From NCBI GenBank assembly GCA_903904335.1, contig CAIVCF010000134.1, positions 1 through 33,586 on the forward strand: a DNA stretch of 33,586 nucleotides, written 5' to 3'. The translations under genes were made by a program, and so were the position numbers. Position 1 is the first letter of the stretch; each line of letters opens with the position of its first letter. The DNA comes from an uncultured Chitinophagaceae bacterium (GTDB lineage Bacteria > Bacteroidota > Bacteroidia > Chitinophagales > Chitinophagaceae). The notes under the pieces are model-generated. The model worked only from the letters and a program-made list of their open reading frames with translations. It was not told the DNA's origin and ran no database searches. Shown piece by piece: positions 3,702 through 21,336 of the stretch.

Positions 3702-3770
3702 AAAATGCTTTTAGTTGTTATTCGAGGATACGGTTTTATTATTTTCCAATCTTTATATCTTAACTCATCA

Positions 3771-3820
3771 ACTGTTGCCTTCGATTCTTTCAGTGAAAGA
3801 ATCGCACACTTGTACGTTCT
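3771..3820 (+). repeat. Dispersed intergenic repeat copy A, with hairpin insert
   Basis: Starts ACTGTTGC and ends TCGCACACTTGTACGTTC, matching the family core, but a hairpin interrupts the core. CGATTCTTTC (3782-3791) and GAAAGAATCG (3795-3804) form a perfect 10-bp stem with loop AGT. It fills the gap between ftsQ and ftsA. No T-run follows on either strand, so it is not a standard terminator. The closest relative is copy B at 21271, which differs by a paired change in the stem. Confidence 0.75.
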
Positions 3821-3825
3821 GTTCT

Positions 3826-4908
3826 CTATTGATCTTTTCCCATCACTGCCTTCGGTTTCTCGTTAGTTACAGGCAGTTTTTTCGGCTGAACTGTAACATG
3901 ACTAACAGATAACGATTTATTGTTCACTTTATTTTGTTTGCCATCAATAACATTTTTATTACCCTGCATGACCGTTTTCACCTGTTTTGATGCTGTATCT
4001 TTTACTGCATTATTTTTTGTTATTGCCGGCAGCTTTACTGCAGAATGTAAACTGTCGGTGCTTCCTGTCATTGTGTTTTGTTTCATCAATTCTTCAATGG
4101 CTTGTTTAGCTCTTGCCGAATCAATCAAAGCCTTTTCCACACCGCGTTTCACAGCCACTACCTGATTATTGAACTGTACATCTATCTTCTCATATTTATT
4201 AAGGCCGTTCTGCAACCATGCCTGTTTATAAAAGCTGTACAGCCTGTTAAATTTATTTTCCAGATCATCTGCATTTCCTATTTCAATCACCTGATCGCCG
4301 ATGGTTGGAATGATCTCAAAAGTGGCAGAGGGTGTAATATCAATTTGTGCCACTTGTGCCATCCAAAAACTATCAGCAAGAATAAATTTTCCGATCACCA
4401 CCACATTTTTCAGCATGATACTATCTGATTGGGTCAAAACTTCCTTATCACTCGGAAAATTTGTAAACACCGGAACCCTTGCGCTCAACTTATCACTCAA
4501 AGGCAAACGAATAGCTGAACTATCAACATAAAAAGAACTTCCTTCTGCACTAAAAACTCTTGCCACAGGCTGTCTTTCTTCAATATTCACATGCAACAGT
4601 TGATTATTATCAAAGAACATCTCTGCATTCTTGACCCATAAATTTTTCTCCAATGCAGATTCCAAAGCTTTCAGATCGATCTTCGATAGATCCTTGCCAA
4701 TTATATTTCCCGGACTGTTGATCAGATCCAACACATCTTTTTCATCAATGAAAACATCTTTCTCAGCTCCTGTTATTTCTATTTTCACATCGCTGCAAAG
4801 CCTTTGATCTTTTTTTTCCATCGCTGCACCAAAAAGAACTATCGTGCCTGTTCCTATCAACAGCCATAAAGCTTGCATGATTCTTTTTTTCCAGTTAATA
4901 TTCTTCAT
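3826..4908 (-). CDS. ftsQ: Cell division protein FtsQ/DivIB-like
   Basis: Bitopic membrane protein of the divisome that links FtsA/FtsZ-side and periplasmic factors. It has a short cytoplasmic start rich in Lys/Arg, one membrane helix at about residues 12-29 (LWLLIGTGTIVLFGAAM), and then a periplasmic POTRA-like region (EITGAEKDVFIDEKDV...) and a beta domain to about 260. The last 90 or so residues are a Lys/Asn/Thr/Val-rich, low-complexity tail with no recognisable fold, so the 360-residue protein is longer than the usual 250-280. The identification rests mainly on position between murC and ftsA plus topology, since the family diverges strongly. The ATG at 4908 is one base after the murC stop, indicating coupled translation. 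Confidence 0.88.
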   Translation of the reverse strand: MKNINWKKRIMQALWLLIGTGTIVLFGAAMEKKDQRLCSDVKIEITGAEKDVFIDEKDVLDLINSPGNIIGKDLSKIDLKALESALEKNLWVKNAEMFFDNNQLLHVNIEERQPVARVFSAEGSSFYVDSSAIRLPLSDKLSARVPVFTNFPSDKEVLTQSDSIMLKNVVVIGKFILADSFWMAQVAQIDITPSATFEIIPTIGDQVIEIGNADDLENKFNRLYSFYKQAWLQNGLNKYEKIDVQFNNQVVAVKRGVEKALIDSARAKQAIEELMKQNTMTGSTDSLHSAVKLPAITKNNAVKDTASKQVKTVMQGNKNVIDGKQNKVNNKSLSVSHVTVQPKKLPVTNEKPKAVMGKDQ

Positions 4909-4909
4909 T

Positions 4910-6268
4910 TCAGTTACTCAGTATTTCTTTTATGGGCAAAACCAAAGCATCAATATCGCCTGCACCTGCCATGATCAATAATTTTGGTTGATGTTCTTTT
5001 ACCCATTTTTTTAATTCTTCTTTGCTCAATACTTCTTTATCCTTCAATTTCATTTTATTTAATATCAATTCACTCGTTACCCCTTCTATCGGCAATTCTC
5101 TTGCAGGATAAATAGGTAACAAGATCACTTCATCGGCCATATCTAAGCTTGTTGCAAAATCATCAGCAAGGTCATTTGTCCTGCTGAACAAATGCGGCTG
5201 AAAAACGACAGTCATTTTTTTATTTGCAAACAAACTTTTTACCCCTGTGATCAATGCTTTTAATTCTTCTGGATGATGTGCATAATCATCGATCAAAACA
5301 TGATCATCATTCTTCAGCACATATTCAAACCTTCGTTTCACACCTTTAAAATTTGCCACTGCCATTTTTATTTTTTCATCCTCTATCTTTAAATACTTTG
5401 CAACAGTGATGGCTGCAATGGCATTTTCAATATTGTGCAACCCGCCCATGTGCAATAAAATATTATTCAAACACCATTCTTTTGCTACAATATCAAACAG
5501 ATAAGAGCCTTGCTGTAACTGCATATTCGCCGAATGAACATCAGCACGAACATCATCATAACTATAAGTACAATGATGGTCGGCTTTTAATTCACTGTTT
5601 CTTTTCAAACCATATTTACTCACCAAGCAGCCACCGGTTTTTATTTTTTGTGAGAACTGAATAAAAGCGTTCTCCACTTCATCAGAAGTTCCGTAAATGT
5701 CTAAATGATCTGCATCCATTGCAGTGATCACTGCTACATCGGGAACTAATTTTAAAAAACTTCTGTCATATTCATCTGCTTCCACCACCACAACATTTTT
5801 TTCATTACTCCAAAAATTCGTGTTGTAATTGGCAGCAATACCACCCAAAAAAGCATTACAACCAAAACCTGTATCTCGAAGTATATGAGCGATCATTGAT
5901 GTTACAGTCGTTTTGCCATGTGTTCCGCCTACACAAACATTAAAAGAACTTTCAGTGATCCATTGCAACACATCACTTCTCTTCACTACTTTATAATTGT
6001 TTTGCTGATAATACAGCAACTCCTTATGATCTTTTGGAATAGCAGGAGTATAAACAACTGCTTCCACTTCTTTGGGTATCAGATCAATTCTTTCTTCATA
6101 ATGAATATTGATATCCAATTTTTCTAACTCTTTCGTTAAAAGGGTTTTCGTTTTATCGTAACCACTTACCTCATATCCTTTCGACACAAAATATCTTGCC
6201 AATGCACTCATTCCAATACCACCGATACCGATAAAATATATTTTATGTATGTTTTCTAATTTGCTCAC
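4910..6268 (-). CDS. murC: UDP-N-acetylmuramate--L-alanine ligase
   Basis: Cytoplasmic Mur ligase that adds the first stem-peptide residue, L-Ala, to UDP-MurNAc using ATP. The N-terminal UDP-binding motif GIGGIGMSALA is at residues 14-24, the ATP-binding GGTHGKTT at 114-121, the EADEYDRSFL segment at 163-172, and DDYAHHPEEL in the middle of the C-terminal half. Length 452 is normal. The start codon is GTG (6266-6268), and it overlaps the murG stop in a GTGA of 4 bp, so the two are translationally coupled. One base separates it from ftsQ downstream. Confidence 0.97.
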   Translation of the reverse strand: MSKLENIHKIYFIGIGGIGMSALARYFVSKGYEVSGYDKTKTLLTKELEKLDINIHYEERIDLIPKEVEAVVYTPAIPKDHKELLYYQQNNYKVVKRSDVLQWITESSFNVCVGGTHGKTTVTSMIAHILRDTGFGCNAFLGGIAANYNTNFWSNEKNVVVVEADEYDRSFLKLVPDVAVITAMDADHLDIYGTSDEVENAFIQFSQKIKTGGCLVSKYGLKRNSELKADHHCTYSYDDVRADVHSANMQLQQGSYLFDIVAKEWCLNNILLHMGGLHNIENAIAAITVAKYLKIEDEKIKMAVANFKGVKRRFEYVLKNDDHVLIDDYAHHPEELKALITGVKSLFANKKMTVVFQPHLFSRTNDLADDFATSLDMADEVILLPIYPARELPIEGVTSELILNKMKLKDKEVLSKEELKKWVKEHQPKLLIMAGAGDIDALVLPIKEILSN

Positions 6269-7389
6269 TTAATATTTTTCAAAATTTCTAATGCTATAAT
6301 TTCATCTGCATTGCTAACAGCTAATAATCTTATATTTTGCCGCAATTCTCTCTGTTTGCTTTCATTAAATAATAGATCGATGGCAACAGTAAATAGGTTT
6401 CGTTTTGCATCTGCATCTTTTACCATCAATGCAGCATTTTTATCAACCAAACTTTTAGCATTTCTTGTTTGATGATCTTCGGCTGCATGTGGGAACGGAA
6501 CAAACACCACTGCTTTTTCTGATACGCATAGTTCCGTTACCGACATCGCTCCTGCTCTTGATATCACTACATCTGCTGCTGCATAAGCTATTTCCATTTC
6601 TTTTATAAATTCATTTGCCCAAACATTTTTATATCCGACTGCTTTGCTGATATATGCACTGGAATTATTTTTTCCAGTCTGCCAGATGAGTTGCACTTGT
6701 AAATTCTCACTATCCAGTAAATGCGCTGCAATCACTTCATTAATGCTTTTTGCTCCAAGGCTTCCACCAACAACCATCAATGTTTTCTTTGTTTCATCCA
6801 AACCAAAAAATCGAACCGCTTCATTTCTTTCAATATTCGACTCGACAATTGCTTTACGAACTGGATTTCCGGTAACAACAATTTTGTCATTTGGAAAAAA
6901 TTTTTCCATCCCTTCACTTGCAACAAAAATCATCGTTGCTTTTTTCCCCAAAAGAATATTCGATTTACCGGCAAATGAATTGCTTTCATGAATAAATGTT
7001 TTTATCCCTTTTGATTGCGCATAACGTAATACAGGAAAAGTTGAGTATCCACCCACACCAATTACAGCAACCGGTTTAAATGCATTTATTATTTTTCTTA
7101 CCTCAAAAAAACTTTTGATTAACTTAAAAGGCAAGCCTAAATTTTTTATCAAAGAACTTCTGTTAAACCCGGCAATATCAATTCCTTTAATTCTGTACCC
7201 TGCCTGCGGTACTTTTTCCATTTCCATTTTCCCTTTTGCGCCCACAAACAAAATATCGACTCCTGTTTGCAATTGTTTAATGGCATTTGCAATGGCAATG
7301 GCAGGAAAAATATGCCCGCCAGTTCCTCCTCCTGCAATGATCATTTTTACAGGTTCGGAAAATCTATTACTAATTTTTATTTCGCTCAT
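6265..7389 (-). CDS. murG: Undecaprenyl-PP-MurNAc-pentapeptide GlcNAc transferase
   Basis: Peripheral membrane GT28 glycosyltransferase that converts lipid I to lipid II on the inner face of the cytoplasmic membrane. The acceptor-side glycine loop GGGTGGHIFPA is at residues 20-30. The donor-side region contains SRAGAMSVTELCVSEKA and FPHAAEDHQTRNA in the last third, as expected for UDP-GlcNAc binding. The ATG at 7389 gives about 12 residues ahead of the usual start; an internal Met16 would give the typical length, and I cannot choose firmly. The 45-bp gap upstream to ftsW is almost wholly a dispersed repeat (copy C). Its 3' end overlaps murC by 4 bp. Confidence 0.97.
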   Translation of the reverse strand: MSEIKISNRFSEPVKMIIAGGGTGGHIFPAIAIANAIKQLQTGVDILFVGAKGKMEMEKVPQAGYRIKGIDIAGFNRSSLIKNLGLPFKLIKSFFEVRKIINAFKPVAVIGVGGYSTFPVLRYAQSKGIKTFIHESNSFAGKSNILLGKKATMIFVASEGMEKFFPNDKIVVTGNPVRKAIVESNIERNEAVRFFGLDETKKTLMVVGGSLGAKSINEVIAAHLLDSENLQVQLIWQTGKNNSSAYISKAVGYKNVWANEFIKEMEIAYAAADVVISRAGAMSVTELCVSEKAVVFVPFPHAAEDHQTRNAKSLVDKNAALMVKDADAKRNLFTVAIDLLFNESKQRELRQNIRLLAVSNADEIIALEILKNIK

Positions 7390-7405
7390 TGATCAATATT
7401 GTTCT

Positions 7406-7433
7406 GAACGTTGAAGAGTGCGACGCAACAGTT
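7406..7433 (-). repeat. Dispersed intergenic repeat copy C
   Basis: On the minus strand it reads AACTGTTGCGTCGCACTCTT and continues CAACGTTC, an uninterrupted form of the family core. It starts immediately after the ftsW stop and takes up most of the 45-bp space before murG. It lacks the hairpin insert of copies A, B and G. Confidence 0.75.
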
Positions 7434-7434
7434 G

Positions 7435-8754
7435 TTACATAGCAGCACTAACGTTTGGTACATTATTATTTAGTACACCTGTATTATTTACAACTGCCGG
7501 AAGAATATCTTTTCCTTCCATTTGTTCTACGTTTCTTGCAACACTTAAAATAATTCCAATAGCGCCGCAAGTAAATAAAAACGAACTTCCACCCATACTA
7601 ACTAACGGCAATGTTACTCCTGTTACCGGAAGGAGATTTACGTTTACTGCCATGTTGGCAATAGCCTGAATAACCAACGTAAAACTCAATCCCAGTGCGA
7701 GAAAGGCTCCGAATGCATAAGGGCATTTTCGAAAAATCCGGATGCATCGAAATAAAAAGATCAGATAAATAAAGATGATGATTGCACCACCTAACAAACC
7801 GTATTCTTCAATGATGATGGAATAAATAAAATCGTTATAAGCCTGTGGCAAATAATTTCTTTGGCGACTATTACCCGGGCCCAAGCCCATAAAAATATTT
7901 CCATTAGCAATAGCAATTTTTGCCTGTTGTACCTGATATGGCACTTCAGCATCTTTTGCATACCTGAAATCCTGCACACGTTTTACCCATGTACCGAAAC
8001 GACCGAATGATTTTATCTTTTCGGAAGTTGTTGAAACAGTTGTTGTTTCCTTTTTCTTTCCGTCATAAGTCAGTACAGCAACTGACACAATGATACCAAT
8101 TGGGATCATTGCAATTAATATCAACAACAAAATATGTTTGATACTTATTCTTCCAATGAACATCAGCAACAAAGAAGTGGCGCCTGTTAATAACGCGTTC
8201 GATAAATTAGCCGGCATGATTAAAGCGCAGATCACCACCACAGGAATCAATGCAGGTAAGAATCCCTTTTTAAAATCTTTGATCACTTCCTGTTTCTTGC
8301 TCAATATTCTTGAGAGATACATGAATAAAGCAAGCTTGGCAAAATCACTTGTTTGGAATGTCATGTTGATGATGGGAAGCTTTATCCATCTGCTTCCTTC
8401 ATTAATTTTGGCACCGAAGAATAAAGTATAGATCAACAATGGAATCGAAATCAAAAATAATATTGTTGCTACACGAGAAAAGATTGTATAATTAATTCGA
8501 TGTAAAAAATAAATGATGAACATGCCCACCATCATAAATGCTAATTGTTTGAACAGATACACCTCATTATTCCCTCTGTTCATTTTATATGCCAACGAGC
8601 CTGTTGCACTGTACACCACCAATACTGAAATAATTGCAAGCAATATCACAATACCCCAGATATATTTATCACCTCTGGTGCGTTGCATCAGTTGCGATCG
8701 CATTCCTTCAACTGAAGGAATTTGAGAAAATAATTTATCTGTGGTTTCTAACAT
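7435..8754 (-). CDS. ftsW: Septal peptidoglycan polymerase FtsW (SEDS family)
   Basis: Polytopic SEDS protein that polymerises lipid II at the septum with FtsI. About ten hydrophobic helices are visible. The family segment IFMGLGPGNSRQRNYLPQAYNDFIYSI lies in the large periplasmic loop region, followed by EEYGLLGG, and VNLLPVTGVTLPLVSMGGSS near the C-terminus is diagnostic. I start it at ATG 8754, one base after the murD stop, giving 439 residues; a longer frame would run back into murD. Even so, about 25 residues precede the first helix, partly encoded by a perfect 9-bp palindrome at 8702-8721 that resembles the dispersed repeat hairpins. Confidence 0.95.
   Translation of the reverse strand: MLETTDKLFSQIPSVEGMRSQLMQRTRGDKYIWGIVILLAIISVLVVYSATGSLAYKMNRGNNEVYLFKQLAFMMVGMFIIYFLHRINYTIFSRVATILFLISIPLLIYTLFFGAKINEGSRWIKLPIINMTFQTSDFAKLALFMYLSRILSKKQEVIKDFKKGFLPALIPVVVICALIMPANLSNALLTGATSLLLMFIGRISIKHILLLILIAMIPIGIIVSVAVLTYDGKKKETTTVSTTSEKIKSFGRFGTWVKRVQDFRYAKDAEVPYQVQQAKIAIANGNIFMGLGPGNSRQRNYLPQAYNDFIYSIIIEEYGLLGGAIIIFIYLIFLFRCIRIFRKCPYAFGAFLALGLSFTLVIQAIANMAVNVNLLPVTGVTLPLVSMGGSSFLFTCGAIGIILSVARNVEQMEGKDILPAVVNNTGVLNNNVPNVSAAM
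8691..8721 (+). repeat. Repeat-like hairpin inside the ftsW 5' coding end
   Basis: GTTGC (8691-8695) is followed by ATTCCTTCA (8702-8710) and TGAAGGAAT (8713-8721), a perfect 9-bp inverted repeat with a 2-nt loop. The left flank and arm sequence resemble copy A (GTTGC, then ATTCTTTC/GAAAGAAT), again with a paired base change. It encodes the IPSVEG stretch of the FtsW N-terminus. Chance cannot be excluded. Confidence 0.4.
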
Positions 8755-8755
8755 C

Positions 8756-10096
8756 TTATAATTCTTTAACTGCTTCTTTAAATTGTTTGCCTCTGTCCTC
8801 ATAATTTTTAAACAGATCAAAACTGGCACAAGCGGGACTTAATAAAACCACATCACCTTTTGTTGCTAATTTAAAACTTGCAGTTACTGCTTCTTTAGCG
8901 CTTTGTGTTTCAACAATAGAAGGAACAATATCTTTAAATGCAGCAATGATCTTTTTGTTGTCAACACCCATACAAACAATGGCTTTTACCCGTTCTTTTA
9001 CCAGATCAGCGATCAACGAATAATCATTACCCTTATCCGTTCCGCCCAATATCAACACGGTTGATTTGTTCATACTCTCCAGAGCGAACCAGGTACTGTT
9101 TACGTTGGTTGCCTTACTGTCGTTGATGAATTCAACACCGCGTACCGACGCAACGAATTCCATTCGGTGTTCGAGGCTCTGAAAATCCTTCACAGCTTCA
9201 CGGATTTTTTCTTTGCGGATGCCAACGGTGGTGGCTGCAATGCAGGCTGCCATAGTGTTGTAGTTATTGTGCTTGCCTTTTAAAGCAAAATCATAAATGC
9301 TCATGCTTACTCTTTCTTCTTGAATACGGAGCATCATCTGATCGCCTTTGATGTAGCCGCCTTTTTTAATTTCATGTTTCATAGAGAATGGTAATGGGTT
9401 AGTATGGGTGGTTAGTAAATCAAAATTTTTTGTGACTATCTCATCATCATCATTGTAGATGAAATAATCGTTTGCTGTTTGGTTATTAATAATCTTAAAC
9501 TTACTGTTGACATAGTTTTCGAATTTGTATTCATATCTGTCGAGATGATCTTCAGTTATGTTTAACAACATCGCTATGTCAGCACGAAAAGTTTTTATAT
9601 CGTCTAATTGAAAAGAACTGATCTCGGCTACATACCAATCTTTCGGATCTTCTGCCACTTGCTTTGCAAATGAGTAACCTATGTTTCCAACTAATGCACA
9701 ACTCAATCCCGCTGTTTCTAAAATGTGATACGTTAATGCAGTGGTCGTACTTTTTCCGTTACTTCCGGTAATAGCAATTATTTTGCTGTTGCCTTTAAAC
9801 CTGTATGCCAGTTCAATTTCACTGATTACTTCAATTCCTTTAGCACGAATGGCTTTCACCATTTCATTTTTTTCAGGAATACCCGGACTCTTCATCACTT
9901 CAGTCGCATTCAAGATTTTTTCAGAAGTATGTTTGCCTTCTTCAAATTCAATTCCATTTTCAATGAGCTCTTGTTTATATTTTTCCTTTATCACACCAGC
10001 ATCGCTCACAAATACTTCGTAACCTTTTTGCTTTCCTAATAATGCAGCACCAACTCCACTTTCACCTCCGCCAAGTATTACTAATCTGTGTTTCAT
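8756..10096 (-). CDS. murD: UDP-N-acetylmuramoylalanine--D-glutamate ligase
   Basis: Cytoplasmic Mur ligase that adds D-Glu to UDP-MurNAc-L-Ala. The N-terminal nucleotide-sugar domain begins RLVILGGGESGVGAALL (residues 4-20), the ATP loop ITGSNGKSTTTA is at 109-120, and DSKATNVNSTWFAL in the C-terminal half matches the family's N-x-x-S/A-x-x-x-A/S region. Length 446 is typical. The ATG at 10096 is preceded by an A-run that belongs to the head of repeat copy D, so this gene's leader is supplied by the repeat. It is separated from mraY by 163 bp and abuts ftsW by one base. Confidence 0.97.
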   Translation of the reverse strand: MKHRLVILGGGESGVGAALLGKQKGYEVFVSDAGVIKEKYKQELIENGIEFEEGKHTSEKILNATEVMKSPGIPEKNEMVKAIRAKGIEVISEIELAYRFKGNSKIIAITGSNGKSTTTALTYHILETAGLSCALVGNIGYSFAKQVAEDPKDWYVAEISSFQLDDIKTFRADIAMLLNITEDHLDRYEYKFENYVNSKFKIINNQTANDYFIYNDDDEIVTKNFDLLTTHTNPLPFSMKHEIKKGGYIKGDQMMLRIQEERVSMSIYDFALKGKHNNYNTMAACIAATTVGIRKEKIREAVKDFQSLEHRMEFVASVRGVEFINDSKATNVNSTWFALESMNKSTVLILGGTDKGNDYSLIADLVKERVKAIVCMGVDNKKIIAAFKDIVPSIVETQSAKEAVTASFKLATKGDVVLLSPACASFDLFKNYEDRGKQFKEAVKEL

Positions 10097-10152
10097 TTTT
10101 TGTTACCAGCTTTTGTTTTTCATGTCATCTTAGTTGCGTCGCACTCTTGTGC
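10096..10152 (+). repeat. Dispersed repeat copy D1 with head module at the murD start
   Basis: The first 20 bases (T6 followed by GTTACCAGCTTTTG) form the head module shared with copies E and G, and its first T is part of the murD start codon. The core GTTGCGTCGCACTCTTGTGC is at 10133-10152. Read on the minus strand, the head encodes ATG-AAA-AAC-AAA-AGC-TGG-TAA (10123-10103), a mini-ORF that ends 6 bases before the murD ATG. Confidence 0.8.
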
Positions 10153-10172
10153 TTTTTGTTCATTTATAATCT

Positions 10173-10205
10173 GAACGTACAAATGAGTGACACAACTTCA
10201 GTTCA
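10173..10205 (-). repeat. Dispersed repeat copy D2, inverted relative to D1
   Basis: On the minus strand it reads GAACTGAAGTTGTGTCACTC and continues ATTTGTACGTTC, a diverged family core with the palindromic GAAC/GTTC ends seen in copy F. Together with D1 it makes an inverted pair about 20 bp apart in the mraY-murD gap, able in principle to fold into one long stem-loop. The rest of the gap up to 10259 is AT-rich with no other feature seen. Confidence 0.65.
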
Positions 10206-10259
10206 TTTTTATTCAATCGCTTGCTGTATAATCAAATAACTTTCATTTCACTATTCACT

Positions 10260-11573
10260 TTATCGAATTTTCAATGTCATAATACTTGCTACTACCAATA
10301 AAATGGTAATGATCAAAAAACGTAATGAAATTTTATTTTCATGAAAACCTTTCTTCTGATAATGATGATGCAACGGGCTCATCAAGAAAACCCTTCTTCC
10401 TTCACCAAATTTTTTCTTGGTGTATTTGAAATAACTCACCTGAATCATTACACTTACTAATTCAACTAAAAACACTCCGCAAAAAATCGGGATCAATAAT
10501 TCTTTTCTAACAATAATGGCTAATGATGCAATTATGCCCCCAATCGCTAAGCTTCCGGTATCGCCCATGAAAACCTGCGCCGGATAAGTGTTGTACCAAA
10601 GGAAGCCGATACATGCACCTACAAATGCCCCAACAAAAATGGAAAGCTCACCAAGATTTGGTATGTACATAATGTTGAGATAATCCGCAAAAATGTAGTT
10701 ACCGCTTACGTACACAAATATTCCCAAGCCTGCACCAATGATGGCACTTACACCGGCAGCTAATCCATCAATTCCATCGGTCAGATTTGCTCCGTTACTT
10801 ACAGCAGTAATGATGAATGTGACAATTAAAATATAAATGATCCATGTATATTTTTCTGCATCTGTTCCCATCCAACTGATCAACTTGCTGTAATTGAATT
10901 CATGATTCTTTACAAAAGGAATTGTTGTAATGGGGGTCTTTACTTTTCTGAAATAATGTGTTGTTCCGTTATTTGTTCTAACAACAATATTTGAATCTTT
11001 TGCAAGCTTTTCTCCCTTTTGTAAATAGGTGCGTGCATCACTTGAAAAAATCTCTCTTTCTACTGTTACAGCTTCACTAAAATAAAGTGTAACACCGATG
11101 ATTATTCCCAATCCAACCTGACCAATTATTTTTGAAATGCCTGCTAAACCATCGCTGTCTTTCTTTTTATATGCCTCACCTTTTTCTTTTGCGATCCTTC
11201 TTGCACGTATTTTAAAATAGTCATCTAAAAAACCTATGATACCCAACCAAACTGTACAAAGAATCATTAGTCTGATATAAACCTTATGTAGATTGGCAAA
11301 CATTAATGTTGGTATCAATATGCTCAACAAAATAATGATGCCGCCCATTGTTGGTGTCCCTTTCTTTTGCATCTGTCCTTCTAAACCAAGATCACGAACG
11401 CTTTCACCTATTTGTTTTTTCTGCAAGAAAATAATCATTTTATGACCATAAATAGTTGCTATCAATAACGACAATACAATGGTCATTGCAATTCTGAAAG
11501 TCAGGTATTGAAATAATCCTGCTCCGGGAAAATTGTAATGCTCTTGCAACCATGTGAAAAAATAATACAGCAT
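10260..11573 (-). CDS. mraY: Phospho-MurNAc-pentapeptide transferase
   Basis: Polytopic membrane enzyme that transfers phospho-MurNAc-pentapeptide to undecaprenyl phosphate, making lipid I. The family marks are [11 protein letters not shown] at about residues 70-80, the paired Asp FLDDYFK at 115-121, [12 protein letters not shown] at 263-274, and the C-terminal [12 protein letters not shown] histidine motif. At 437 residues it is about 75 longer than E. coli MraY. The extra length is a hydrophilic insert at about 170-240, between the LYFSEAV helix end and the next helix. Related Bacteroidota proteins are also long, so this is probably a lineage trait. It lies 3 bases after the murE stop. Confidence 0.97.
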
Positions 11574-11576
11574 ATA

Positions 11577-13040
11577 TTATTTGCTTAATGATTCAAACAT
11601 TTGTTTTAAAATAGCTTTGTCGTCGAAAGGATGTTTTATACCATTGATGTCCTGATATTTTTCATGCCCTTTTCCTGCAACTAAAATGATGTCTTCTCCT
11701 TTTGCCAAACTGACAGCAGTTTTAATTGCTTCTTTTCTATCAACGATAGAAATAAATTTTCTTTTTGCTGAACTACTTAATCCGGCTTCCATATCTAACA
11801 AAATTTGATTGGCGTCTTCTGTTCTCGGGTTGTCACTTGTGAAGATGGCTTTATCACTTAAGTCGCAGGCTGTTTGTGCCATTACCGGGCGTTTCGTTTT
11901 ATCCCTATCACCACCACATCCAACAACTGTTATTATTTGTTCGTGGCCTTTTCTTAATTTTTTTATTGTTGATAAAACATTTTCCAATGCATCTGGAGTA
12001 TGAGCATAATCAACTATTCCAATGATCAAATGACTACTGATGATATAATCGAATCTTCCTTCTGCGCCGGTCAATAGACTCAAGGCCGTTAATACTTCTT
12101 CTTTGTTTTCATGCAAACAAATAGCTGCACCATAGACCGCAAGCAAATTATATGCATTGAATTCACCAATCAATCTGAAATGCACTTCTGTATCATTCAC
12201 CAACATTTGCAAACCGGTAAGTGCGTTATCTAAAATCTTTCCCTTGAAATCGGCAACAGTTTTTAAACTGTAGTAATATTTTTTAGCATTGGTATTTTGC
12301 AACATCACTTCACCTCGTTTATCATCACGATTAGAAACAGCAAAGGCAGAAGATGGCAGGCAATCGAAGAAACTCTTCTTTACTCTGATGTACTCATCAA
12401 AGGTTTTGTGATAATCCAGATGATCGTGAGTGATGTTGCTGAAAATACCTCCTGTAAACTGTAAGCCGGTTATTCTATGTTGATGAATGGCATGACTGCT
12501 GCATTCCATAAAAACATGGGTGCAACTTTCATCAAGCATTTGTTTTAATAATGCATTCAAACTAATTGCATCAGGTGTTGTATGTGTTGATGGAATGATA
12601 TCACTCGCAATTTGATTTTGCACTGTACTGATCAATCCACATTTGTAACCCAATTGCGTAAATAGTTTGAACAGAACTGTTGCAATCGTTGTTTTGCCAT
12701 TTGTTCCGGTAACACCAACCAGCTTTATCTTAGTTGATGGCTCATCATAAAAATTATGAGCAACATAAGCAACAGCTTCATGTGTGTTATTCACTTGAAC
12801 ATAAGTAATGCCTTTAACAAGTTCTACAGGCAATGCTTCGCACAAAATTGATTTGGCGCCTGATGCAATTGCTTTATCGATGAATTGATGTCCATCTGCT
12901 TTTTCACCGTGAATAGCAACAAACAAAGTCCCTTCACTCACTTTGCGTGAATCGATCTGCACATCTCTCACTTCTACACTTGTGTTTCCCTGCACTTGCT
13001 TGAGATGAACTTTGTATAATATGTCCAGTAATTTTTTCAA
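11577..13040 (-). CDS. murE: UDP-MurNAc-tripeptide synthetase (meso-DAP type)
   Basis: Cytoplasmic Mur ligase that adds the third residue of the stem peptide. The UDP-binding start has DSRKVSEGTLFVA at about residues 30-42, the ATP loop GVTGTNGKTT at 109-118, and HTTPDAISLN at 153-162. The DNPR motif at 403-406 marks meso-diaminopimelate specificity rather than lysine, so the peptidoglycan should be DAP-type. GKGHEKYQ lies near the end. Length 487 is normal. The start codon is TTG (13038-13040), one base after the ftsI stop; the N-terminus then aligns with the family's usual start, and no suitable ATG is nearby. Confidence 0.96.
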   Translation of the reverse strand: MKKLLDILYKVHLKQVQGNTSVEVRDVQIDSRKVSEGTLFVAIHGEKADGHQFIDKAIASGAKSILCEALPVELVKGITYVQVNNTHEAVAYVAHNFYDEPSTKIKLVGVTGTNGKTTIATVLFKLFTQLGYKCGLISTVQNQIASDIIPSTHTTPDAISLNALLKQMLDESCTHVFMECSSHAIHQHRITGLQFTGGIFSNITHDHLDYHKTFDEYIRVKKSFFDCLPSSAFAVSNRDDKRGEVMLQNTNAKKYYYSLKTVADFKGKILDNALTGLQMLVNDTEVHFRLIGEFNAYNLLAVYGAAICLHENKEEVLTALSLLTGAEGRFDYIISSHLIIGIVDYAHTPDALENVLSTIKKLRKGHEQIITVVGCGGDRDKTKRPVMAQTACDLSDKAIFTSDNPRTEDANQILLDMEAGLSSSAKRKFISIVDRKEAIKTAVSLAKGEDIILVAGKGHEKYQDINGIKHPFDDKAILKQMFESLSK

Positions 13041-13041
13041 A

Positions 13042-15156
13042 TCAGTTCAATAAAATATTTATGATCTGCCCTTTTGCAATTGGTGTTCCCGCTGCGATGG
13101 ACTGATCTTCTACTCTCCCTTTTCCTTTTATATTTAATTTCAATCCAATATTTTCACACAGAAACACTGCATCTTTTAAACCCATTCCTTTTAATTGAGG
13201 CATGGTACCTTCATTTATTTTTCTGTTGATCAATACAACAGAGCCTTTATTGCTGCTCATATTTACCCAATCGTCAGTAATAGAAGTGGAATCGCTATAA
13301 TGCAGTTGCATTGTTTTCATCACTTGTTTCACATCCTCTTTCAATCCAACATAATTGAAATAGCTGCTGTCATTTTTATTGGATGAATTTTTAGTGTAAT
13401 TATTCTGGCGTACATAATTCAAATACAATCTGTCTGAAATTTCTTTAAACACAGGACCGGCAACATCTGCGCCGTGTCTCTTTAAAGCATGTGGCTTATT
13501 TTTTATCACAACCAGACAAGTATATTGAGGATCATCCGCAGGAAAATATCCTACAAAAGATGCCTGATAAATTTCATCAGTATACCCTTTGCTCCCATTT
13601 GCCACCAATGCAGTTCCGGTTTTGCCTGCAACTTTATAGGTTGCATTTTTGAAAATTCCTTTTGCAGTTCCTTCTGCACAAACTCCCTCCAAACATTCTT
13701 TCAATTGATGTAATACTGCATCATTACAAATCTTTTCATCAATTATTTTCGGTTCGATTTCTCTGATCAATTCTCCTTCTTCTTTTACAGCACTTACCAG
13801 ATAAGGACGCATCATCTTTCCATTATTTGCAATGGCATTATACAGTGTGATGGTTTGCAATGGTGTTACTTCGATATTGTAACCAAATGCCATCCAGGGC
13901 AATGTTGTAGAGCTCCAGTATTTGGTACCTGGTTTATAAATCACAGCATTTCTTTCTCCTTTGAGATCGATACCTGTCAAAGTATCTAAATGCATCTGAT
14001 GCAAATGGCGGATGAATTGATTGGGATTATTCCCGTAATTATTCCAAACCAATTTTGCCATACCTACGTTTGAACTGATTTCAAATGCTCGCTTTACAGT
14101 TACATCCAAATTTTCTTCATGCTTCTCACTGTCAAAAACAGTTTGGCCATTTATTTTCCAAACACCGCCTTCCAGATTAACTGTATTATTCAGAGAAATT
14201 TTTTTGTCTTCTAATAAAGACAACATCGTTGCCAATTTGAAAGTTGAACCCGGTTCTGAAGGGTTAATGGCGTAATTATAATCCTCGAAATATGAACCAT
14301 CATTTCTCTTACCAAGATTTGCAATGGCTTTTATCTTTCCGGTCTTTGTTTCCATCACTAAAGCACATCCATGTTCTGCTTCATTTTGTATCATCATCTT
14401 CATTAAAGCATTCTCCGTTATTTCCTGCACAAAAACGTCGATCGTTGTAACTATGTCTTTGCCGTTCTCTGCTTCTGTTTCAAAACCTCCTTCCACCGGA
14501 ACGCTTACCCCACCTGCAATGTAGCGCACCAACCTGCTGCCGCTTTTCCCTTTTAATAAACTGTCGTATGTTAATTCCAAGCCCACTTTAAAAGAATCCC
14601 TTGCCAATCCAATGGTTCGAAAAGCAAGCATATTGTAAGGATTCAAGCGCTTGCTTTTATCCACAGCAATAAAACCACTTTTATTTTTTCCTAATCTTAC
14701 CAATGGAAATGTTTTTAATTGTTGATATTCTCTGTATGAAATATTTTTTCTCAAGAAATAAAACCTGTCTTTATTTTTAAATCCTTCACTCAATATTTTT
14801 TTATACTCTCCTTCTGTTTGGTCTTTAAAAAGATCTGATAAATCGTAACTCAATGAATCCAGATTATCTTTAAACCTTTTCCCGTTTTTCTCCTGCAAAC
14901 CATCCGCACCAAAATCAATGTATATGTCAAACTGCGGAACACTGGTGCTTAACATTTCTCCATCTTCGCTGTAAATCGTTCCACGCTCTGCTTCCGTCGC
15001 TTCAGGTTTTATGTGCAGACTATCACTAATGTCACGCCAATGTTTGCCTTCAACCTGTTGTATGTAAAACGCTTTGCCGATAATTACAAATCCGACAATC
15101 ACTACTGCGATATAAGCCAGATACACTCTCCATAATATGTCGCGTTTTACATCCAT
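13042..15156 (-). CDS. ftsI: Division transpeptidase (class B PBP, FtsI type) with PASTA end
   Basis: Septal DD-transpeptidase that cross-links strands made by FtsW. There is one membrane anchor at about residues 11-29, a PBP dimerisation domain, then the transpeptidase domain with SxxK at 304-307 (GSTFK, Ser304 nucleophile), SSN at 361-363 and KTG at 512-514. The last 55 or so residues (GTMPQLKGMGLKDAVFLCEN and on) form one PASTA domain, common in PBPs of this phylum and absent from E. coli FtsI. Length 704. It follows ftsL by 12 bp and is one base from murE, so it is clearly in the operon. Confidence 0.96.
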   Translation of the reverse strand: MDVKRDILWRVYLAYIAVVIVGFVIIGKAFYIQQVEGKHWRDISDSLHIKPEATEAERGTIYSEDGEMLSTSVPQFDIYIDFGADGLQEKNGKRFKDNLDSLSYDLSDLFKDQTEGEYKKILSEGFKNKDRFYFLRKNISYREYQQLKTFPLVRLGKNKSGFIAVDKSKRLNPYNMLAFRTIGLARDSFKVGLELTYDSLLKGKSGSRLVRYIAGGVSVPVEGGFETEAENGKDIVTTIDVFVQEITENALMKMMIQNEAEHGCALVMETKTGKIKAIANLGKRNDGSYFEDYNYAINPSEPGSTFKLATMLSLLEDKKISLNNTVNLEGGVWKINGQTVFDSEKHEENLDVTVKRAFEISSNVGMAKLVWNNYGNNPNQFIRHLHQMHLDTLTGIDLKGERNAVIYKPGTKYWSSTTLPWMAFGYNIEVTPLQTITLYNAIANNGKMMRPYLVSAVKEEGELIREIEPKIIDEKICNDAVLHQLKECLEGVCAEGTAKGIFKNATYKVAGKTGTALVANGSKGYTDEIYQASFVGYFPADDPQYTCLVVIKNKPHALKRHGADVAGPVFKEISDRLYLNYVRQNNYTKNSSNKNDSSYFNYVGLKEDVKQVMKTMQLHYSDSTSITDDWVNMSSNKGSVVLINRKINEGTMPQLKGMGLKDAVFLCENIGLKLNIKGKGRVEDQSIAAGTPIAKGQIINILLN

Positions 15157-15168
15157 TCTTTCAAATAC

Positions 15169-15498: not shown

Positions 15499-15501
15499 TT
15501 G

Positions 15502-15559
15502 TTTTTTGTTACCAGCTTTTGCTTTTCATGTAATCGAGTGTTGCGTCGCACACTTCAAC
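15502..15559 (+). repeat. Dispersed repeat copy E with head module at the ftsL start
   Basis: The head (15502-15521) is identical over 20 bases to that of copy D1, and the core GTTGCGTCGCACACTTCAAC is at 15540-15559. On the minus strand the head encodes ATG-AAA-AGC-AAA-AGC-TGG-TAA (15529-15509), ending 10 bases before the ftsL ATG. It fills most of the 88-bp rsmH-ftsL gap. Confidence 0.8.
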
Positions 15560-15586
15560 TTTCATTTATCACTCAATATTTGTCAT

Positions 15587-16540
15587 TTATAATTTTTCTG
15601 CCACTCTCAACTTTGCACTTCTGCTTCTGTTATTTTTTTTCAATTCAACATCTGTTGCAGTAATGGGTTTCTTTGTTATTATTTTAAACACAGCATCTTT
15701 CGTTTCAGACATGAAAGGGTTATCAGGCATTTCGTCGAAACTGCCCTGGCGAAAAAAATTCTTTACCAACCTATCTTCTAATGAATGAAAAGTGATGATA
15801 GCCGCTCGACCACCTTGTTTCAATACAGCGGGTAACTGCTGTAACATTTCTTTTAATACCCCCATTTCATCATTCACTTCAATTCGTAAAGCCTGGAACA
15901 CTTGCGCCAAGTACTTGTTAGGATTGCCTTTCACCACTGGACTGATCAGCGATTTGAATTGGATAATATTTTGTGCAGGCAATTGTTTACGTTGCTGAAC
16001 AATATGCTTGGCCAATGTTTTGGAGTTAGTTACTTCGCCATACTGTTCAAATAATTTGTGCAGTTGTGGTTCAGTATAAGTGCGGATAATATCCGCAGCA
16101 CTTAACTCCTGACGCTGATCCATTCTCATATCCAAAGGGCCATTAAAGCGAATAGAAAAACCACGATCACCTTCATCAAACTGATGTGAGCTTACTCCGA
16201 GATCAGCTAAAATGCCATCTACCTGTTGCACTTTATGCAACCGTAAAAAACGTTGCAGGTGGCGAAAATTTTGCGGAACAAAGATTACCCGTTCATCAAC
16301 AGGTACATTTTTTTGTGCATCAGCATCCTGATCAAATGCAAATAATTTTCCATTCGCATTTAATTTTTCGAGTATCCCTTTGCTATGACCACCACCACCA
16401 AACGTGCAATCAACATAAACTCCATCCGGTTTAATATTAAGCGCATCGAGTGTTTCATGAAAGAGGACAGGGATGTGATAATTAGAATTTTCTGATTTGA
16501 GATTTTTGATTTGAGATTGATTTTCTTTTTGATCACTCAT
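15587..16540 (-). CDS. rsmH: 16S rRNA (cytosine(1402)-N(4))-methyltransferase
   Basis: Class I SAM-dependent methyltransferase (formerly MraW) that modifies C1402 in the ribosomal P site. The SAM-binding motif VDCTFGGGGHSKGIL is at about residues 43-57, GILADLGVSSHQFD follows in the first third, and ITFHSLEDRLVKNFF and NNRSRSAKLRVAEKL are in the C-terminal part. The family usually begins right at the YHIPVLFHETL segment, here residues 21-31; the first 20 residues are a polar extension with no alternative start inside it. Part of that extension is encoded by two copies of the 10-mer AATCTCAAAT (minus strand). It lies 20 bp after mraZ. Confidence 0.96.
   Translation of the reverse strand: MSDQKENQSQIKNLKSENSNYHIPVLFHETLDALNIKPDGVYVDCTFGGGGHSKGILEKLNANGKLFAFDQDADAQKNVPVDERVIFVPQNFRHLQRFLRLHKVQQVDGILADLGVSSHQFDEGDRGFSIRFNGPLDMRMDQRQELSAADIIRTYTEPQLHKLFEQYGEVTNSKTLAKHIVQQRKQLPAQNIIQFKSLISPVVKGNPNKYLAQVFQALRIEVNDEMGVLKEMLQQLPAVLKQGGRAAIITFHSLEDRLVKNFFRQGSFDEMPDNPFMSETKDAVFKIITKKPITATDVELKKNNRSRSAKLRVAEKL
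16495..16518 (+). repeat. Tandem ATTTGAGATT pair inside the rsmH start
   Basis: Exact copies of ATTTGAGATT are at 16495-16504 and 16509-16518, a period of 14. On the minus strand they encode part of the QSQIKNLKSE segment of RsmH. The same 10-mer pair appears ahead of the OmpA-family gene and, with one mismatch, ahead of scoB. Confidence 0.55.
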
Positions 16541-16560
16541 AATTCTTAATTCTTAAATCA

Positions 16561-17016: not shown

Positions 17017-17041
17017 TGTTAATAAATATTGTTCAAGATTA

Positions 17042-17078
17042 CCACTTGTTGACACAAAATAACACTTTTTCCCACTTT
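17042..17078 (-). promoter_or_regulatory. Four MraZ-box-like direct repeats upstream of mraZ
   Basis: On the minus strand four 7-mers lie exactly 10 bp apart: AAAGTGG (17078-17072), AAAGTGT (17068-17062), TTTGTGT (17058-17052) and CAAGTGG (17048-17042). AAAGTG[T/G] repeats with 3-nt spacers are the described MraZ box in Mollicutes, and E. coli MraZ uses 10-bp-spaced TGGG repeats. A TTATTTTG box (17062-17055), one base off the TAnnTTTG -7 consensus, overlaps the array, so binding could block the cluster promoter. The -33 element is not clear. Confidence 0.7.
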
Positions 17079-17115
17079 AAATCCTAATTTGAAGTGATTG
17101 TATTTATCCACAGAT

Positions 17116-17123
17116 TATATTTG
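17116..17123 (+). promoter_or_regulatory. Possible queA promoter -7 box (TATATTTG)
   Basis: TATATTTG fully matches TAnnTTTG and points toward queA, 188 bp away. TTG is 15 bp upstream and TTTG is 24 bp upstream; neither is at the usual 19 or so. The remaining divergent region (17079-17310) holds only a small AAGCC/GGCTT hairpin near 17213. Confidence 0.3.
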
Positions 17124-17310
17124 TCCGAAACTCAATACCAGAAAGAGTTTGAGATGATTTTAAAGAAATAAGCTGTGATTTTGATGTGAATTATTGTGGA
17201 TAAGCAGGCAAGAAGCCTTTTGGGCTTGAATTCCAGAGAAAGATTTTAGTGAGTAGTGCTGCATTTATAAATAGAAATTATCTAAAACCGAATAAGAATT
17301 TTGAATTGAT

Positions 17311-18558: not shown

Positions 18559-19880
18559 GGAATATCCAATGGCATTTCAACAGTAAAGATGGTGCCTTTA
18601 CCTAAGGTACTGTCCACTTTTATTTTTCCTTTGTGAGCATCAATCACTGTTTTTACATAACTCATACCCAAACCAAATCCCTTTACATTGTGAACATTAC
18701 CAGTATGGGCTCGGTAAAATTTTTCAAATATTCGTTTTGCGTTTTCTTTTGTCATGCCAATACCATTATCCTCCACACTGAGGACTACTAATTTATTAGA
18801 GCTATGTGTCGTGACTTTTATCACAGGATTATCTTTTGAATATTTAATTGCATTATCAATGAGGTTTGAGATCATATTCGTGAAATGAATTTCATCTGCA
18901 CTGATTAGATCATTTTTAGCGTTCAGTAAAAAAACAACCCTCCCCATTTTCTCTTTTAACTGTAATTCATAGTTATCCAATACATTTTTTACAATATCGT
19001 GCATGTGTAATTTTTTAAAGTTTAATTGCAACTCCTGTTTTTCCATCAAAGCAGCCTGCAGAATGGTTTCTACATGCTTATTCATTCGCTTGTTTTCTTC
19101 TTTGATGATTCCTGTAAAGTATTGGAACTTCTCTTTATCATTATACACTTTTTCATTTCTTACTGCATCTATTGCCAAAGAGATAGTAGCCAAAGGTGTT
19201 TTCAATTCATGCGTCATATTATTAATGAAGTCACTCTTGATCTCACTTAATTTTTTCTGATTGAGTAAGGTTTTGAGAGTTACATAAAATGCTGCAAGTA
19301 TGATAAGCATGAAAATGGCAACTGCTGCGATCACCCATTTCAAAGAATCCCAGACTTGTTTTTTATAATCGGGAACAATGATGATCAGATTTTCAATAGC
19401 ACTCATGTTTTCAATATCTGATGCATTTCCTGATGTGATAGGAATAATCGTTCTGTGATTATTAGTGGTTTCCATCAACTCCTCCTCAAAATTTCGGGAA
19501 TGCATTGCGACTTCTCCCTGATCATTCACAACAGCAAAATCGAAACTTAGTTTTTTTAATCCTTCTTTTTCAAACGAAACTTCTAATTTTTTATAAATAT
19601 CCTGTTGAGAAAATCTGTCTGCAATAGAAGGTGGTTTTGCAAGTTTTGATAAATCGAATCCAAACCTGAAACCCGGTTTACGTGTAATATTTAATGATGG
19701 TGAATTATGAACAGATTTACTTAAATCATTCGCAACACTTGTTCCCGCATCACTCACTTTATGGAATAACTGAACCTCTCCCACTTCCAAAATATTTTCA
19801 AGCCATGAAGCCTGTAACCAAATAAGGCCTAACAGCGAAAGTGTGATCAGTATAACAATGAGGGGTAATGTTCTCTTCAT
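18555..19880 (-). CDS. Sensor histidine kinase, membrane-bound, orphan
   Basis: Two membrane helices (about residues 5-26 and 183-202) frame a periplasmic sensor region of about 155 residues with no recognised fold. The HisKA domain has phospho-acceptor His224 in FINNMTHELKTPLATISLAID. The HATPase_c domain has N-box NLIDNAIKYS (339-348), G1 DNGIGMT (371-377), an F-box FEKFYRA and G2 GFGLGMSYVKT. All catalytic boxes are intact. No response regulator is adjacent, so its partner is unknown. I start at ATG 19880; the open frame reaches GTG 19886. A TATATTTG -7-like box at 19893-19886 lies directly before the ATG, which would give an almost leaderless mRNA if used. Confidence 0.92.
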   Translation of the reverse strand: MKRTLPLIVILITLSLLGLIWLQASWLENILEVGEVQLFHKVSDAGTSVANDLSKSVHNSPSLNITRKPGFRFGFDLSKLAKPPSIADRFSQQDIYKKLEVSFEKEGLKKLSFDFAVVNDQGEVAMHSRNFEEELMETTNNHRTIIPITSGNASDIENMSAIENLIIIVPDYKKQVWDSLKWVIAAVAIFMLIILAAFYVTLKTLLNQKKLSEIKSDFINNMTHELKTPLATISLAIDAVRNEKVYNDKEKFQYFTGIIKEENKRMNKHVETILQAALMEKQELQLNFKKLHMHDIVKNVLDNYELQLKEKMGRVVFLLNAKNDLISADEIHFTNMISNLIDNAIKYSKDNPVIKVTTHSSNKLVVLSVEDNGIGMTKENAKRIFEKFYRAHTGNVHNVKGFGLGMSYVKTVIDAHKGKIKVDSTLGKGTIFTVEMPLDIP

Positions 19881-20000
19881 CAACACAAATATAATGCTCT
19901 CATAAGCTTACTAAGAAGCATGTCTCAGGTTTATCAACCTTTTAACGAAGAAATTATAAAATATGCATTGAGATTTGACTGAATATCTTAATTTTCATTT

Positions 20001-20552
20001 ATGATTGATCTGTCAGCAGGCACTTTACTTATCTCCGACCCATTTTTAAAAGATCCCAATTTTTTAAGAACGGTAGTGCTTTTATGCGAACATCAGTTCG
20101 AGGGAAGTTTCGGTTTTGTATTGAATAAATTATATGATCAGAAAATTGGCGATCTTGTTGAAGATCTTGCAGGTATTAAATTTCCTGTTTATTACGGCGG
20201 GCCTGTGCAGGTTGACACTTTACATTTCCTGCATCGTTGTCCTGAATTGATTGATGGCGGCATTTTAGTTACAGATGATACTTATTGGGGTGGCAATTTC
20301 GAAACCGTAAGTGCATTACTGAAACAAAACGGTTTACAACAAAATGATATTCGTTTTTATATCGGTTATAGTGGTTGGGGACAAGGACAATTGGAAGATG
20401 AATTAAAAACAAAAAGCTGGATTACTTCTGCTGGTACCAGTAAATTAATCTTTCATCGCTATGCAAATATGATCTGGAAAGAAGCATTGAAAGATTTGGG
20501 TGGCGAGTACGAACAAATGATCAACTATCCTATCGATCCGCAATTAAATTAA
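20001..20552 (+). CDS. yqgE: YqgE/AlgH family protein (UPF0301)
   Basis: Conserved protein of 183 residues with no settled biochemical role. The family marks are all present: [20 protein letters not shown] at residues 7-26, [14 protein letters not shown] just after, [15 protein letters not shown] in the middle, and [17 protein letters not shown] in the last third. There is no signal peptide, so it is cytoplasmic. It is single, divergent from the sensor kinase (about 120 bp gap with no clear promoter seen), and convergent with scoB with a 4-bp overlap of stop codons. Confidence 0.93.
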
Positions 20553-21205
20553 ACTTTCATTTCAGGAATATCCCCGTTAATTATTATTCTTCCTGCTGTT
20601 TTATTTTTTATTTCTTCAACAGTTACGCCGGGTGCACGTTCTAATAAAACAAAACCATCTTCTGTTACATCTAATACTGCTAATTCTGTTACAATTTTTT
20701 TTACGCATCCAACACCAGTTAATGGCAATGTGCATTGAGGTAATAGTTTGCTTTCGCCTTTTGGATTGGTATGCATCATGGCAACAATAATATTTTTTGC
20801 ACTTGCAACAAGATCCATAGCACCCCCCATTCCTTTCACCATTTTTCCGGGGATTTTCCAATTCGCAATATCTCCTATGTCGCTTACTTCCATTGCTCCT
20901 AAAACAGTGAGATCAATTTTTCCGGCTCGTATCATTCCAAAACTTTCTGCACTGTCAAACAATGCAGCTCCTTTAATTAATGTAACAGTTTCTTTTCCTG
21001 CATTAATTAAATCGGCATCTACTTCTTCTTCTGCAGGATAGGGCCCCATTCCCAGAATTCCATTTTCGCTTTGCAATATCACAGTCATCTCTACAGGAAT
21101 ATAATTCGCAACTAAAGTTGGAATGCCAATACCAAGATTAACATACATGCCATCTTTCAATTCCTGTGCAATGCGTTTCGCAATTCCGTATTTATCAAGC
21201 GGCAT
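20549..21205 (-). CDS. scoB: 3-oxoacid CoA-transferase, subunit B
   Basis: Beta subunit of succinyl-CoA:3-ketoacid CoA-transferase, which moves CoA between succinyl-CoA and acetoacetate in ketone-body or butanoate metabolism. [15 protein letters not shown] at residues 22-36 is the family glycine segment, and SENGILGMG at 46-54 holds the catalytic Glu47 that forms the CoA thioester. [14 protein letters not shown] is the conserved mid-protein motif. Length 218 is standard. It lies 131 bp downstream of scoA, a wide gap for this pair, with repeat copy B between them and a tandem ATTTGAGATT/ATTTAAGATT pair just ahead of its ATG. Confidence 0.95.
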
Positions 21206-21210
21206 AAATT

Positions 21211-21234
21211 ATTTGAGATTTATTATTTAAGATT
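21211..21234 (+). repeat. ATTTGAGATT / ATTTAAGATT tandem pair ahead of scoB
   Basis: ATTTGAGATT at 21211-21220 and the one-mismatch ATTTAAGATT at 21225-21234, period 14. The first ends up about 6 bp before the scoB ATG on the minus strand. It is the same motif as at 16495 and 26244. Confidence 0.45.
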
Positions 21235-21270
21235 TGATGAACCCAACTTCCATTACTTTATTTAACTATT

Positions 21271-21316
21271 GTTACATTCGATTCTTCCAGTGGAAGAATC
21301 GCACTCTTCTACGTTC
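21271..21316 (+). repeat. Dispersed intergenic repeat copy B, with hairpin insert
   Basis: Same arrangement as copy A: GTTACATT, a perfect 10-bp stem CGATTCTTCC (21279-21288) / GGAAGAATCG (21292-21301) with loop AGT, then CACTCTTCTACGTTC. Relative to copy A one stem pair has changed from T-A to C-G on both arms together. It lies between scoA and scoB. Confidence 0.75.
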
Positions 21317-21336
21317 TTCACTTTATTCTACTATTA

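Follow-up and report, generated by a model that had tools for sequence, protein, structure and literature searches.

Paired changes in an optional hairpin at the centre of an interspersed intergenic repeat of Chitinophagaceae

The 33,586-nucleotide contig CAIVCF010000134.1 (GenBank assembly GCA_903904335.1) of an uncultured Chitinophagaceae bacterium, here called the window, carries two perfect 10-bp hairpins, one at 3782-3804 (CGATTCTTTC-AGT-GAAAGAATCG, copy A) and one at 21279-21301 (CGATTCTTCC-AGT-GGAAGAATCG, copy B). They differ in a single stem pair, T-A in copy A and C-G in copy B. Both the hairpins and the paired change are exactly where a previous sequence-only reading had put them; none of 100 shuffles of the window contains their pattern. 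Both sit centrally in an intergenic repeat of about 85 nt, and the stretches around them (3746-3830 and 21243-21327) are 74% identical over 85 nt. Here we describe this repeat, the exchange of what lies at its centre, and the pattern of paired changes in the hairpin.

In the genome of the window (G000; 3.1 Mb in 261 contigs), 80 places match the hairpin-less core GTTGCGTCGCACTCTTGTACGTT with three mismatches or fewer, and a shorter core pattern finds 109 places, compared with six for the same pattern read backwards. Distinct places within three mismatches of the hairpin, which we call type 1, number 21. In an alignment of 66 copies, oriented as copy A, the repeat runs from a T run through a block near GTTACCAGC and a variable spacer of about 22 nt to the centre GTTGCGTCGCAC, followed by (A/T)CTTGTACGTTC and a weaker TTTATTCAACA block; its ends carry T and A runs. 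This short centre, found in the window copies 7429(-), 10133(+), 15540(+) and 27475(-), itself holds a small palindrome, TGCGTCGCA. The fixed position of the hairpin in the core and its lack in other copies, as the sequence-only reading had them, hold up, but the type-1 hairpin takes the place of one G of GTTGCGTCGCAC with a net gain of 22 nt and is thus not a strict addition. That reading did not mention two further units, a copy at 31134-31240 with a different insert at the same place and an inverted unit, 10189(-). The units in the window are as follows, where G000-G004 are the five genomes of the window's genus:

3746-3830, plus strand: repeat copy A, between ftsA (2334-3701, minus) and a gene without a family match (3826-4908, minus)
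3782-3804, plus strand: type-1 hairpin inside copy A, with a 10-bp stem and an AGT loop
7385-7470 (ends approximate), minus strand: repeat copy with short centre (7429), between an FtsW-like gene and murG
10096-10172, plus strand: repeat copy with short centre GTTGCGTCGCAC (the 10133 copy), between mraY and murD; its orthologue in G002 has a type-1 hairpin
10160-10226 (ends approximate), minus strand: second, inverted unit (10189), subtype GTTGTGTCACTCATTTGTACG, head to head with the 10133 copy
15502-15590 (ends approximate), plus strand: repeat copy with short centre (15540)
20540-20560, no strand: site without the repeat in the window; a whole copy is present in G001 (type-2 insert) and G002 (short centre), with conserved flanks
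21243-21327, plus strand: repeat copy B, between two CoA-transferase subunit genes (20549-21205, minus, and 21337-22044, minus)
21279-21301, plus strand: type-1 hairpin of copy B, carrying the paired T-A to C-G change
27430-27520 (ends approximate), minus strand: repeat copy with short centre (27475)
31134-31240 (ends approximate), plus strand: repeat copy with a different central insert, upstream of htpG (29287-31125, minus)
31181-31202, plus strand: type-2 insert TTCCGAAGGAATCCCATTGGGA, at the same place as the hairpins of A and B; its fold is not better than that of shuffles (p 0.153)

The centre is occupied in a minority of copies. Comparison of orthologous loci shows that the occupant changes from one orthologue to another, with the remainder of the copy left in place. 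At locus A, all five congeneric genomes have the same unusual left half in common, and the hairpin is present in two of them, G000 and G002, with different stems, and lacking in G001, G003 and G004. At the 10133 locus the hairpin is found in G002 only, while G004 is without the repeat and G003 retains a degenerate remnant. The G001 orthologue of the 31134-31240 copy has a type-1 hairpin in place of the type-2 insert. Among 18 orthologous sets, nine are mixed, five all hairpin and four all short; some of the loci had been picked for a hairpin in one genome, which means that nine in 18 is not a rate, and one pairing among the orthologous loci (L076/L167) has weak flanks. Outside the repeat, the mean identity of orthologues is 83% to the left and 69% to the right. 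Within it, the blocks are 73-83% identical when orthologues are compared and 55-71% for unrelated copies, from which we conclude that copies are mostly inherited in place. There is one clean 22-nt difference, between G002 (short) and G001 (type 2), where the adjoining sequence is identical. In another pair, L032 of G000 and L200 of G001, the flanks are near-identical but the spacer of about 22 nt has diverged strongly, as though it had been replaced as well.

The paired change between A and B is one of many. The sequence-only reading took it to suggest selection for, or copying of, a paired structure, and proposed a covariation test across all copies, which we carried out as a shuffle test on 86 type-1 hairpins (44 distinct; 500 shuffles, relatedness ignored). 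The outcome was positive: 94.1% of stem cells are paired, compared with 86.0% in the shuffles, double-changed cells number 37 against 7.8, and the covariation score is 0.293 against 0.137, none of these values being reached in any of the 500 shuffles. Unremarkable were the number of stem pairs with a double change (five, 59 of 500 shuffles) and the number of further pair types (12, 108 of 500). When the partners were slid by one to three columns, 42-59% of cells paired. The copies were collected by hairpin-shaped patterns and filtered for at least seven of ten stem pairs and a repeat-like right flank, which raises the percentage paired; the filter does not favour double changes, because each of these uses up two mismatches. 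Set against the commonest hairpin, the 86 copies hold 69 both-arm Watson-Crick changes, 55 one-arm changes and two both-arm unpaired ones, and in G000 alone the counts are 16, nine and zero. Unpaired changes as frequent as paired ones, which would have spoken against a paired structure, were therefore not seen, although pairing is imperfect: unpaired changes are not rare, but paired ones lie far above chance. Of the 55 one-arm changes, 29 come from two variants that are frequent in G002, one with T.G at pair 1 (18 copies), the other with G.G at pair 2 (11 copies). Pairs 3, 4 and 9 together have 29 double-changed cells, no one-sided standard pairs and six unpaired cells. The suggested copying is thus well supported, whereas the structured RNA that the sequence-only reading also considered is not.

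Selection on pairing in an RNA should make G-U on the transcribed strand the preferred one-sided step. No such wobble preference is seen in 45 distinct hairpins, which have 11 G.T and nine A.C cells. For this count, 12 of 99 candidates were dropped, namely ten chance matches outside the repeat and two real hairpins (L150, L181) whose right flank failed the filter; the resulting 87 copies include an antisense duplicate of L030 that is not in the 86-row set, and L176, a doubtful member, was kept. Consensus folding of 57 short copies on both strands gave nothing beyond a 3-bp stem, and an Rfam scan of the window had no match. A conserved fold on one strand with wobble intermediates, as expected of a structured RNA, was not found for this repeat. 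The hairpin could still be part of an RNA, such as a terminator, a stabiliser of the 3' untranslated region or a regulator, kept by selection on pairing. This would account for the strong covariation, and the neighbouring genes are compatible with it: 48 of 75 classified copies lie between co-directional genes, 17 between convergent and ten between divergent ones, and in 17 of the 34 cases with a gene of the same direction on the T-run side, this gene ends 34-42 nt from the centre, i.e. at the T run (counts from a simple greedy assignment of open reading frames that include a few doubtful core hits). Counted per copy, G.T cells also outnumber A.C cells, by 24 to nine. However, the repeat occurs in both orientations relative to genes, the hairpin is missing from most copies and is swapped or lost between orthologues, and the stems of A and B are not followed by an unbroken T run; together with the lack of wobble preference among distinct hairpins and of a fold in the short form, this makes an RNA role quite unlikely. 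A paired structure maintained or copied at the DNA level is the most likely source of the signal.

The type-1 hairpin is not the sole occupant of the centre. We searched for inserts anchored by their flanks (GTTG N6-36 CACNCTTGTAC), a search that demands exact flanks and therefore sees part of the copies. Inserts are about 16-30 nt long, mostly 20-23 nt, and in the window's genus usually hairpins. With the insert in parentheses, type 2 in the genus is GTTGCGTCG(TTCCAAAGGAATCCCTTTGGGA)CAC, of which window positions 31181-31202 hold a variant, type 3 is GTTG(TCCGAAGGACTCCTTTGGAG)CGTCGCAC, and type 4 is GTTGCG(TCTGCCTGCCGGCAAAGGCAGG)TCGCAC. Several unrelated inserts share this one spot in G000-G004, and likewise in three other genera: G028 has TCCCGATGAATCGGGA and CCCCGA...TCGGGG, and G030 has AAGTTTATCCTGAGCTTGTCGAAGG, with similar strings in G008. 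Thirty inserts were chosen by hand from the search lists for a folding test, repeated type-1 stems being mostly omitted, and 13 of them fold better than their own shuffles (p 0.05 or better). Read as strings, type 2 resembles type 3 inverted, and each abuts CG(T/A)CG; the CGTC of the repeat centre, a tetranucleotide that in REPs (repetitive extragenic palindromes) stands, like GTAG, at one end of the stem, abuts type-2 and type-3 inserts but not type 1. The types also differ in where they are found. In G000 all 21 type-1 places lie within a recognisable repeat copy, a few of these degenerate, while the type-3 family has 13 places, five at the repeat centre, one in the repeat spacer and seven elsewhere. 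Six of 13 in the repeat is improbable, with a binomial probability of 1.8e-6 for a repeat share of about 3% of intergenic DNA and 9e-4 for a share of 10%, both fractions being assumed, as is the intergenic fraction (10%) behind the estimate. Tandem copies of one insert were absent from the insert lists of the flank search.

We tentatively raise the possibility that the centre is a dedicated docking site where small unrelated palindromes insert, get replaced and get lost. Two side observations concern the same inserts. One copy, L225 (G000:C163:12369), has a type-3 hairpin to the left and a degenerate type-2-like insert to the right of CGTCG. Outside the repeat (L219, L220, L221, L223, L224, L226, L073), the type-3 hairpin GTCCRAAGGACTCCTTYGGA is frequently preceded by a T and frequently embedded in other palindromic strings, e.g. 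CCCCTTTAGGGG in L219.

The presence of whole copies also differs between genomes. Near window position 20549 the repeat is missing in G000 and present in G001 and G002 between conserved flanks, and L200 of G001 and L032 of G000 form a second filled/empty pair. The orthologous intervals of G001-G004 contain no counterpart of the inverted unit at 10160-10226, which lies beside the 10133 copy and has the subtype sequence GTTGTGTCACTC. Read as strings, TTAAT flanks the repeat on both sides in both filled/empty pairs. This, and the T and A runs at the repeat ends, would fit a miniature inverted-repeat transposable element (MITE) moved by a DDE transposase, with hairpin and short forms as subfamilies that inserted separately. 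However, among 175 copies, 5-mers occur on both sides in 127 cases against 127.5 with shuffled partners, and none of the shared 5- to 8-mers is significantly enriched (7-mers: 27 against 22.6, sd 4.2); at locus A and at 10133, moreover, it is the centre that differs, and the halves on either side of it are orthologous. We consider a MITE very unlikely, and TTAAT was dropped as a target mark when the target-duplication test proved negative.

A single-strand mechanism would leave no target duplication either, and the hairpin might then be the recognition site of an HUH/RAYT-type transposase (RAYT, REP-associated tyrosine transposase; REP, repetitive extragenic palindrome), with paired changes keeping it recognisable, in line with the transposase-recognised palindrome of the sequence-only reading. 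GTAG REPs are hypothesised to be RAYT-mobilised (PMC3733652), an insertion sequence (IS) is known to hit the symmetry axis of a REP (PMC1525189), and head-to-head unit pairs occur here as well. Set against this, we found no enzyme linked to the hairpin, the Y1 flanks inspected being those of G000. At the ends of the single Y1 match of that genome lie other palindromes, not the repeat; G001 has no Y1 match by PF01797 but 91 core places; and the long hairpin is missing from most copies. A Y1 match is present in 12 of 14 genomes with the core and in 33 of 45 without it, which is no clear relation. RAYT was rejected as the mover, Y1 matches being widespread among relatives and that of G000 unlinked to the repeat, and we regard recognition of the hairpin by a transposase of this kind as doubtful, if less so than an RNA role. 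The Y1 (RAYT-like) transposase gene of G000 (L185 1760-2340, G000:C75) is flanked by palindromes, among them CCGGCCTGAAGGCCG and GGCTTTAGCC/GGCTAAAGCC, that resemble a REP family of their own.

The reading we favour, at a probability of roughly 0.55, is that the hairpin is an exchangeable module at the centre of a non-coding, interspersed REP/BOX-type repeat, with arms homogenised at the DNA level. Inserts of types 2 and 3 may arrive when a small mobile palindrome inserts into the palindromic centre; the type-3 family occurs outside the repeat too. Type 1, which in G000 is confined to the repeat, could instead arrive by short-patch recombination with a hairpin-bearing copy. The arms would be kept alike by template switching (quasipalindrome correction), a process studied in yeast genes that makes the arms of short inverted repeats alike and may invert the spacer (PMC8604942). 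By template switching, a mutation in one arm can become a paired change in just one step, and the T-A to C-G difference between A and B may be such a one-step change, or else reflect two existing variants. We infer that arm homogenisation by template switching, along with exchange of hairpins among copies, fits the data better than RNA selection. The loop is suggestive of spacer inversion: in the 86 copies its middle base has changed from G to C seven times, to A four times and to T once, and one loop is ACC, the inverse of GGT, as expected from inversion.

Several observations weigh against this reading of the hairpin as an exchangeable, DNA-homogenised module. The template-switching step is deduced from the pattern of changes. 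The loop signal is weak, as AGT to ACT is a change of one base and one of the seven rows (L176) is doubtful. The per-copy excess of G.T over A.C cells in the 87 copies (24 against nine), which comes mainly from one variant, TGATTC..GAATCG (18 copies), leaves some room for a strand preference. Perfect stems make up only 41 of 86, so arm correction, if acting, is slow or incomplete. Among the inserts tested, 17 of 30 fold no better than shuffles, including all five listed for G008 and G030. Hairpin-bearing orthologues are sometimes near-identical, with zero or one difference in the three pairs, of six, that could be measured, which means that exchange is not constant; at locus A (G000 and G002) and in L171/L150 the hairpins differ more. 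Finally, concerted evolution of hairpins within genomes is weak, with 6.52 differences within and 6.91 between genomes (38 of 2000 shuffles), in a comparison that includes records found by exact pattern.

How does the repeat relate to known elements? It shares its high copy number, extragenic location and palindromic core with REPs. It resembles the GTAG- and CGTC-tagged REPs described by Di Nocera in 2013 (PMC3733652) in being short, numerous and extragenic, in forming head-to-head pairs, in holding CGTC at its centre, and in lying mostly between co-directional and convergent genes. It differs from REPs as described there in that the unit is about 85 nt long, has outer blocks that are conserved and does not as a whole form a long palindrome, and in that a single centre accepts several unrelated inserts, the occupant varying between orthologues. 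The same source describes REPs or REP dimers nested in other palindromes in A. variabilis, T. roseum and H. neapolitanus. Unlike RAYT-linked REPs, the repeat does not flank the Y1 gene of G000, and G001 has no Y1 match. The pneumococcal BOX element (PMC3049150) likewise consists of outer modules and an optional central one gained or lost at a given locus, which is what the mixed orthologous sets show here; as described in that paper, BOX may hold several boxB copies, whereas here there is usually one insert of several possible sequences, and the likeness is one of modular layout. REP-targeting IS elements (IS1397, ISPsy8 and others) insert into a palindromic repeat, ISPsy8 at the symmetry axis (PMC1525189); in contrast to these elements as presented there, the inserts here are about 20 nt long and non-coding. 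Quasipalindrome correction (PMC8604942) offers the parallel of arms made alike and a spacer that may invert, reported there for yeast genes and proposed here for an interspersed bacterial repeat. The repeat works like a modular BOX/REP element, and because neither a RAYT link nor target duplication was found, we file it under no named family. For six core and stem strings, the literature search gave only two unrelated plant papers that print one of them, and among the papers listed by a search on Chitinophagaceae repeats no title or abstract opening concerns this element. Within the literature searched, the repeat itself and a single centre with several unrelated inserts changing between orthologues seem new.

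The repeat has long resided in the intergenic DNA of this family. Among the 59 genomes of the order that were searched, 14 contain its core with no more than one mismatch (ten of 54 genera), all within the window's family, and the type-1 hairpin is present in five of the same 59, namely the five of the window's genus. Named records bearing this hairpin are metagenome bins labelled Chitinophagaceae or Bacteroidetes; phage and plasmid collections gave nothing that matches copy A. A further repeat, near ACCACAGAGTTAAAGAGAAAAAGAGTTAAC, adjoins or separates copies at L067, L016 and L054. Within the window, positions 2334-15156 form a division and cell-wall cluster with four repeat units between its genes. 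Its ftsA, murG, murD and mraY exceed their NCBIfam cut-offs, while the FtsW-like gene (TIGR02614, E 5e-79) remains below its own curated cut-off. The left half of the repeat copy at 7385-7470 supplies the last codons and the stop of this FtsW-like gene, and G000, G001, G002 and G004 share the resulting C-terminal stretch in conserved form, whereas in G003 it is altered.

We assign neither the hairpin nor the repeat a role for the host. Paired changes in a hairpin are usually taken as a sign of a selected RNA structure; here the same signal arises in DNA repeats that lie on either strand, with hairpins that are disposable and loci that are present or absent between close relatives. This is a warning for covariation-based discovery of RNAs in bacterial repeats. 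At the same time, the repeat provides a ready system for studying how 20-nt palindromes move, a question for REP-like sequences without a linked transposase. Should the centre indeed be a docking site, many intergenic copies across the family would be sockets for interchangeable hairpins.

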